The position numbers and the translations under genes were made by a program. Positions 61,963 through 62,174 of a DNA stretch of 64,000 bases are shown one piece after another (position 1 is the stretch's first letter; the number at the start of each line of letters is the position of its first letter). The stretch covers positions 248,001 to 312,000 of the forward strand of contig JAKAGT010000001.1 of assembly GCA_021825585.1 (NCBI GenBank), given 5' to 3'. Source of the DNA: Bacteroidota bacterium. Its GTDB lineage: Bacteria; Bacteroidota; Ignavibacteria; Kryptoniales; JAKASW01. Under the pieces are notes generated by a model. It searched no databases and was not told the origin of the DNA. It saw only the letters and a program-made list of their open reading frames with translations.

Positions 61963-61996
61963 AAAAGCCCTTCGTCGGTTTTCAACGAAGGGCTTC
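61963..61996 (-). terminator. intrinsic attenuator terminator of the sir operon
   Basis: On the minus strand AAGCCCTTCGT (61995-61985) pairs perfectly with ACGAAGGGCTT (61975-61965), loop nine bases, followed by TTTTCTT. It lies 27 bases after the leader-peptide stop and 65 bases before sir. An upstream CGAAGG (62046-62041) can pair with CCTTCG (61991-61986) of its left arm as an antiterminator. Confidence 0.9.
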
Positions 61997-62022
61997 AAAT
62001 TTTTGGTCTATCGATTCTTAGG

Positions 62023-62136
62023 TCAACCCAAAGATTCACACCTTCGCGAAACCGAGGCGGTCATCATACAGATACAACAGCAACAGGCGCATGTCATTTG
62101 AATCCCGGGCTTTCGCAACAGCGTGAATTTGTTCAT
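62023..62136 (-). CDS. cysteine-rich leader peptide (attenuator)
   Basis: 37 codons, ATG to TGA, between metB and sir. The peptide contains M-T-C-A-C-C-C-C-I-C-M-M at residues 14-25: six Cys in eight codons (16-23) followed by two Met. A further Cys is at 33. Codons TGC and TGT are both used. The promoter at 62146-62174 places the transcription start near 62139, so the message is probably leaderless; no RBS is present. Slow decoding at scarce Cys-tRNA would hold a ribosome at 62091-62068, leaving CGAAGG at 62046 free to block the terminator. With ample cysteine the ribosome would continue to the stop, cover CGAAGG and allow termination. Confidence 0.85.
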   Translation of the reverse strand: MNKFTLLRKPGIQMTCACCCCICMMTASVSRRCESLG

Positions 62137-62145
62137 CGTTGATAA

Positions 62146-62174
62146 AAGTTATTAATACTTAATTATTTTGTCAA
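62146..62174 (-). promoter_or_regulatory. predicted promoter of the Cys leader/sir operon
   Basis: -35 TTGACA (62174-62169), 17-base spacer, -10 TAACTT (62151-62146). Predicted start of transcription about 62139, three bases before the leader ATG. Confidence 0.65.

Follow-up and report, generated by a model that had tools for sequence, protein, structure and literature searches.

A predicted cysteine-responsive leader-peptide attenuator before a sulfur operon of the Ignavibacteria

A short cysteine-rich open reading frame (ORF) followed by an intrinsic terminator precedes the sir...cysM-mec-cysO/moeZ operon of this Bacteroidota genome. Judged from sequence and from RNA folding, the leader is very probably a cysteine-responsive, ribosome-mediated transcription attenuator of this operon that senses Cys-tRNA. 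The parts of the attenuator and their conservation are seen in the sequence and in the comparison with relatives, and its mutually exclusive RNA pairings are predictions. Two facts are the strongest: a Cys-Ala-Cys-Cys-Cys (CACCC) core of the leader is kept through synonymous change, and the adjoining element UUCGCGAAGG is retained as RNA whichever of two frames it is read in. Most of what is known about leader-peptide attenuation comes from Proteobacteria, Actinobacteria and some Firmicutes.

The leader and its operon

Coordinates refer to the window, that is, the whole 64-kb stretch of DNA analysed, and all features described lie on its minus strand. The leader ORF (62136-62023; ATG at 62136-62134, stop codon TGA at 62025-62023) has 37 codons and encodes MNKFTLLRKPGIQMTCACCCCICMMTASVSRRCESLG, with seven Cys in all. 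Six of these are found within the eight codons Cys-Ala-Cys-Cys-Cys-Cys-Ile-Cys (62091-62068), and two Met codons (62067-62062) follow directly 3' of the run. Translation of the minus strand thus bears out the leader of the earlier note in its length, its Cys run and its Met codons. The run is the sole stretch with at least five Cys per eight codons in the six frames of the window, and provides the short ORF with codons for the pathway amino acid that is expected of an attenuator. Two other matches to the Cys-run pattern in the same genome, C73 and C75, were rejected as leaders. No Rfam match over the leader reached the gathering score, and at a relaxed threshold the leader gave sub-cutoff matches only.

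The first structural gene is sir (61898-60129), coding for a sulfite/nitrite reductase-type hemoprotein (PF01077/PF03460), with its ribosome-binding site AGGAGGAG directly 5' of the start. It is followed by genes for a protein with a PUA-like domain, similar to the N-terminal part of ATP sulfurylase (60141-59608; PF14306, sub-cutoff sopT), a siroheme synthase of the CysG type (59611-58169; PF00590, PF13241, PF14824), a cysteine synthase of the CysM type (57884-56853; PF00291; TIGR01138 at 369 bits, just below cutoff), a JAMM/Mec-like metalloprotease (56852-56388; PF14464) and a ThiS(CysO-like)-ThiF/MoeZ-rhodanese fusion (56347-54896; PF02597, PF00899, PF00581). The resemblance of these products to known families suggests that the operon makes sulfide and cysteine, apparently by the CysO-CysM-Mec route. 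All genes from sir to the fusion are on one strand and no strong terminator-like site was found on the minus strand from 61.9 to 54.9 kb, so that control of the whole operon, as the earlier note had it, is plausible.

Contig C79 of the same assembly (G000) carries another metB-sir-cysG-cysM-mec-moeZ cluster (L175), which also has a Cys leader. We rejected it as a paralogue: its GC content (47.4% versus 53.6% in the window) and the small size of the contig make a contaminating relative the more likely source. At 60141-59608 only the PUA-like N-terminal part of ATP sulfurylase is encoded, and C79 has an ORF of 609 aa at the equivalent place in its cluster.

The metB-like gene upstream (63488-62277; Cys/Met metabolism PLP enzyme, PF01053) forms a separate unit. 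It is preceded by a SAM riboswitch (63780-63650; RF00162, 81.4 bits), the sole Rfam match at gathering score, and by a terminator-like hairpin 3' of the riboswitch (63632-63608). The two adjoining sulfur units therefore use different RNA sensors.

Conservation of the leader and its promoter

A search with the sir protein returned eight relatives of 63-69% identity in MAGs titled Bacteroidetes, Ignavibacteriales and Ignavibacteria, and by a genome search sir was located within the same genus as well as in two other families of the class. Removal of duplicates left 11 distinct leaders (that of the window, WIN, together with L002, L006, L031 and L033-L039). Leader, promoter and terminator are kept in all 11 of these close relatives, in a common order: promoter, leader of 34-38 codons with the Cys run starting at codon 14-17, stop codon (TGA, TAA or TAG), 27-33 nt, terminator, sir. 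According to the earlier note, relatives retaining the hairpin and lacking a Cys-rich ORF would have spoken against attenuation; the opposite was seen, both being kept in 11 of 11. Neither the distant sir homologues, 37-40% identical (L040-L045), nor the remoter matches (L013-L030) have such a leader.

The CACCC core is invariant in the 11 leaders as an amino acid sequence, and its codons vary (TGC/TGT for Cys; GCA, GCC, GCG or GCT for Ala). The next element after the core, UUCGCGAAGG, is almost invariant as nucleotides and is read as S-R-R in WIN, L031, L006 and L033 and as F-R-E-G in L034-L037 and L002; even two genomes of the same genus, G076 and G241, carry it in different frames. What is conserved is thus the coding in the first block and the RNA sequence in the second. 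Retention of an RNA element while the reading frame drifts could serve as a signature for finding further leaders of this kind. At least one Met codon is found within a few codons 3' of the Cys cluster in every sir leader, and Met-tRNA supply is perhaps sensed as well.

The promoter consists of a -35 element, TTGACA (62174-62169), perfect in 10 of the 11 sir leaders, and, 17 nt further on, a -7/-10 element TAACTTTT (62151-62144) of the Bacteroidota-like form TAnnTTTG. Bacterial promoters are expected to start transcription a few bases past a -10-type element. The ATG lies 7 nt past the end of this element in the window, and the corresponding distance is 6-7 nt in nine of the sir leaders and 11 nt in the other two; a start a few bases past the element would therefore make the 5' UTR absent or too short to hold a Shine-Dalgarno sequence. 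On this spacing, which is kept across relatives, the sir leader is probably leaderless, in agreement with the earlier proposal. A leaderless start is not universal in the wider set of leaders described below, since the gap is longer in several cysK and many metY leaders.

Upstream of the promoter lies a conserved box, TTGTCAATTTAGAAT (62207-62193), which may be a regulator site or an UP-like element. The main control of sir could lie with a DNA-binding regulator at this TTGNCAATTTAGAAT box, leaving mere fine-tuning to the leader, and the distribution of the box fits such a role in part: the form TTGNCAATTTAGAA(T) is present before eight of the 11 sir leaders, and in the whole assembly the box occurs only before the two sir copies. 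The leader, however, is kept by all relatives, including the three from which the box is absent, and a regulator at the box would be compatible with attenuation. We consider it rather improbable that the box is the main control.

Terminator, alternative pairings and proposed mechanism

The intrinsic terminator (61996-61964) is a hairpin of 14 pairs, counting G-U, with the U-rich tail UUUUCUU. Its core, AAGCCCTTCGT/ACGAAGGGCTT, is a perfect 11-bp stem beginning 27 nt past the leader stop codon, as described in the earlier note; the U-run is interrupted by one C. An intrinsic terminator thus lies between leader and structural gene, as expected of an attenuator. The fold of the 201-nt leader region has a z-score of -3.96, and none of 200 shuffles was equally stable. 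A second hairpin, CCCGGCA...TGCCGGG (61948-61916), follows the terminator and precedes the sir ribosome-binding site, and L031 has a similar inverted repeat.

Three regions of the leader RNA are predicted to take part in alternative pairings. Region 1 (62127-62111, TTCACGCTGTTGCGAAA) is the 5' arm of a protector hairpin and pairs with 62051-62035 in the minimum free energy (MFE) fold; region 2 (62055-62041, TCGGTTTCGCGAAGG) is the 5' arm of an antiterminator; region 3 (61991-61975) comprises the left arm and loop of the terminator and is the 3' arm of the antiterminator. The complementarity between CGAAGG (62046-62041) and CCTTCG (61991-61986) pointed out earlier is correctly placed but too short: the predicted helix joins 62055-62041 to 61991-61975 over some 15-17 pairs, not just six. 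When a ribosome was set on the Cys run of the sir leaders, and the free RNA was folded as far as the right arm of the terminator, its MFE structure was the antiterminator, in which region 2 pairs with region 3. The linking pairs number 15-17 in 10 of the 11 leaders and 11 in L039. This last leader carries an A at a column where the others have a G, and both alternative partners have changed along with it, from C to U.

On the alignment of sir leaders the terminator helix is 97.4% paired, with double changes at three pairs, and for the antiterminator helix the paired share of the alignment cells is 88.8%, as against at most 57% when it is slid. Their covariation scores were reached by 2 and 4 of 500 shuffles, respectively, figures that overstate significance and are not probabilities, because the relatives are not independent and the shuffle tests ignore relatedness. 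In single sequences the antiterminator energy is mostly just moderately better than with a shuffled region 2; pooled over leaders, again with relatedness ignored, the linking pairs exceed those of shuffles (Fisher p = 2e-8 for sir, 5e-4 for cysK and 0.02 for metY leaders). Folding of both alternative structures, which the earlier note had suggested, and covariation thus predict a mutually exclusive antiterminator that would be free to form when a ribosome stalls on the control codons.

In the absence of a ribosome, the MFE folds of WIN, L036-L039 and L002 contain the terminator and a long-range hairpin in which region 2 pairs with a 5' portion of the ORF; other pairings were seen in L033-L035. 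We are least sure of the protector hairpin, because shuffled 5' arms do as well as region 1 in most single leaders.

The spacing of these elements allows predictions about the ribosome. The extended region 2 begins 12 nt past the last codon of the Cys run, and a stall anywhere in the run should therefore leave it free; a ribosome halted at the two Met codons would mask the 5' end of region 2 yet leave CGCGAAGG exposed. GAAGG ends 15 nt before the stop codon in the window, 10 nt before it in most sir relatives and 8 nt before it in many cysK and metY leaders, so that a ribosome at the stop codon should block this sequence, in the window only marginally. The geometry claimed earlier accordingly holds, as a prediction, for the stall that leaves CGAAGG free, whereas a ribosome at the stop codon would cover CGAAGG only at its edge.

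From this arrangement we infer a leaderless start, stalling, read-through and Cys-tRNA as the signal, perhaps with a contribution of methionine. Transcription would begin at the leader ATG or a few bases from it, and a ribosome would initiate at the 5' end of the nascent RNA. Under a shortage of charged Cys-tRNA, this ribosome would stall in the CACCCCIC run and leave region 2 available for pairing with region 3; formation of the antiterminator would preclude the terminator, and RNA polymerase would read into sir. When Cys-tRNA is ample, the ribosome would reach the stop codon and block the 3' end of region 2, so that the terminator would form and transcription would stop. If the leader is not translated at all, region 1 could capture region 2, and the terminator would again form.

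Control might instead be exerted on translation, a stall on the Cys run exposing the ribosome-binding site of sir. Known polycysteine leaders, those of M. smegmatis, are described as acting on translation (PMC13236596 and PMC9031893). Such control is very unlikely here: in every relative the leader is separated from the gene by a GC-rich hairpin with a U-run, whose covariation is that of a terminator, and AGGAGGAG lies more than 50 nt past the terminator, outside the conserved alternative pairings.

Sulfur leaders of the class and known systems

In 391 genomes of the class, a loose pattern search for Cys runs led to loci in which a Cys-run ORF and its terminator stand immediately before cysK or metY. 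The pattern gave mostly noise, with counts similar to those of a reversed control, and only loci with ORF, terminator and sulfur gene were retained. An unselected, gene-first survey covered the regions upstream of cysK (22 usable) and metY (58); it required a GCCC...GGGC-T terminator and an ATG ORF ending 10-60 nt before it, and set the cluster cut-offs at no fewer than three Cys in five codons for cysK and three Met/Cys in six for metY. All four cysK regions with such a terminator have a Cys-cluster leader (antisense control, 0 of 2), and all 12 metY regions a Met/Cys-cluster leader (antisense control, 0 of 10). The metY runs, among them AMMIMC, MCMCCMC, VMMCMM and TMCMMM, are dominated by Met, which by analogy makes a role of methionine in the sir leader plausible.

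Four further leaders (L228-L231) are placed directly before cysM-mec-cysO/moeZ with no sir between, one of them in a genome of the same genus that has no close match to sir; in these the TAnnTTTG-like element ends 7, 7, 9 and 23 nt before the ATG. Eight metY loci (L053, L057, L114, L115, L117, L118, L128 and L132) have a SAM riboswitch according to Rfam, and in L115, which was read in detail, it lies between the leader terminator and metY. These eight loci apparently combine a predicted Met/Cys leader attenuator and a SAM riboswitch in series. The folding method used found no good antiterminator for the metY leaders L114 and L132. In the metY leaders L151 and L155-L158, T/S-K-G stands at or near the end of the peptide, and GAAGG-containing or AAAGGG codons near the stop codon complement a terminator arm. 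A strict pattern gave no family-like match outside the class in a sample of 395 genomes of the phylum, which is weak negative evidence because the pattern is narrow.

Taken together, we are inclined to believe, with some reserve, in a class-wide sulfur regulon in Bacteroidota of the Ignavibacteria type, with leaders that are often leaderless, codons tuned to the gene (Cys at cysK, Cys followed by Met at the sir operons, Met with Cys at metY) and leader and SAM riboswitch in series at metY. If so, metY would have two termination checkpoints, one reading charged tRNA and the other SAM, and would offer a testable case of two RNA checkpoints that read two stages of one pathway. Such leaders would represent a coherent sulfur regulon governed by leader-peptide attenuation in Bacteroidota, with Cys and Met codons predicted to be mixed gene by gene. 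They would also be a testable case of dual-amino-acid leaders and of apparently leaderless leaders acting through intrinsic terminators.

The wider set of leaders bears on two further explanations. The small ORF might encode a functional Cys-rich peptide for metal binding or redox reactions, the hairpin being merely its terminator; Cys and Met clusters can bind metals, and the ORF is short and has its own promoter and terminator. This seems to us highly improbable: the C-terminal half is not conserved as protein, because its frame differs among relatives, the sir leader is unlike the cysK and metY leaders save for the control codons, and the ORF always stands before sulfur genes with its region 2 complementary to the terminator. 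That the Cys run is functionless and kept by shared ancestry alone is scarcely credible, even with relatives drawn from few families, given the synonymous change within CACCC, the RNA element retained in shifted frames and the recurrence before different genes in several families with matching codon content.

Cysteine attenuation by the sir leader can thus be set beside known systems. In the classical trp, his and leu attenuators of Proteobacteria, a leader with control codons is followed by the alternative hairpins 1:2, 2:3 and 3:4 and an intrinsic terminator. The sir leader has the same layout of control codons, predicted alternative hairpins (1:2 being the least certain) and terminator, and differs in amino acid, lineage and apparently leaderless start; moreover, its control codons lie between the arms of the putative hairpin 1:2, whereas the classical ones are in the 5' arm. 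The Rfam His_leader model scores only 23.8 bits on it, far below the cutoff of 49.

The mycobacterial polycysteine leaderless short ORFs (Canestrari et al. 2020, cited in PMC13236596 and PMC9031893), which act on translation as far as these citing accounts go, likewise have a run of Cys codons before cysteine genes, with the speed of the ribosome on these codons as the sensor; for the sir leader this sensor is proposed and a leaderless start is suggested by the promoter-ATG spacing. Unlike them, the sir leader, in Bacteroidota, has a conserved intrinsic terminator and a predicted antiterminator of 15-17 pairs, and actinobacterial Cys leaders were also predicted without conserved intrinsic terminators (PMC1262725). 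Absence of a conserved terminator with control of translation, the mycobacterial trait, is not what we find, and an independent system here is plausible. The uORFC-8-2 motif before cysS of Rhodobacterales (PMC8632094) likewise combines Cys codons with an intrinsic terminator and is predicted to act as a ribosome-mediated attenuator; it differs in having two tandem Cys codons, a cysteinyl-tRNA synthetase gene as its target, an alphaproteobacterial host and a two-stem consensus. The leaderless metL leader before metNIQ of Streptomyces lividans (PMC8079986) shares with the sir leader the mixed Cys and Met codons (CMCRRMC) and probably the leaderless start; it belongs to a transporter operon in Actinobacteria, and no typical Rho-independent terminator is reported for it.

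For Bacteroidota, the papers found (PMC9723704 and PMC7366714) refer to leader-peptide attenuation no more than generally, and PMC2965389 (2010) knew of none outside Proteobacteria and Actinobacteria, to which Firmicutes were then added. Our literature search, which reached few subscription papers, found no description of the present case. The kind of mechanism is known; the lineage, the predicted gene-tuned Cys/Met codons and the predicted tandem control with SAM riboswitches are most likely new.
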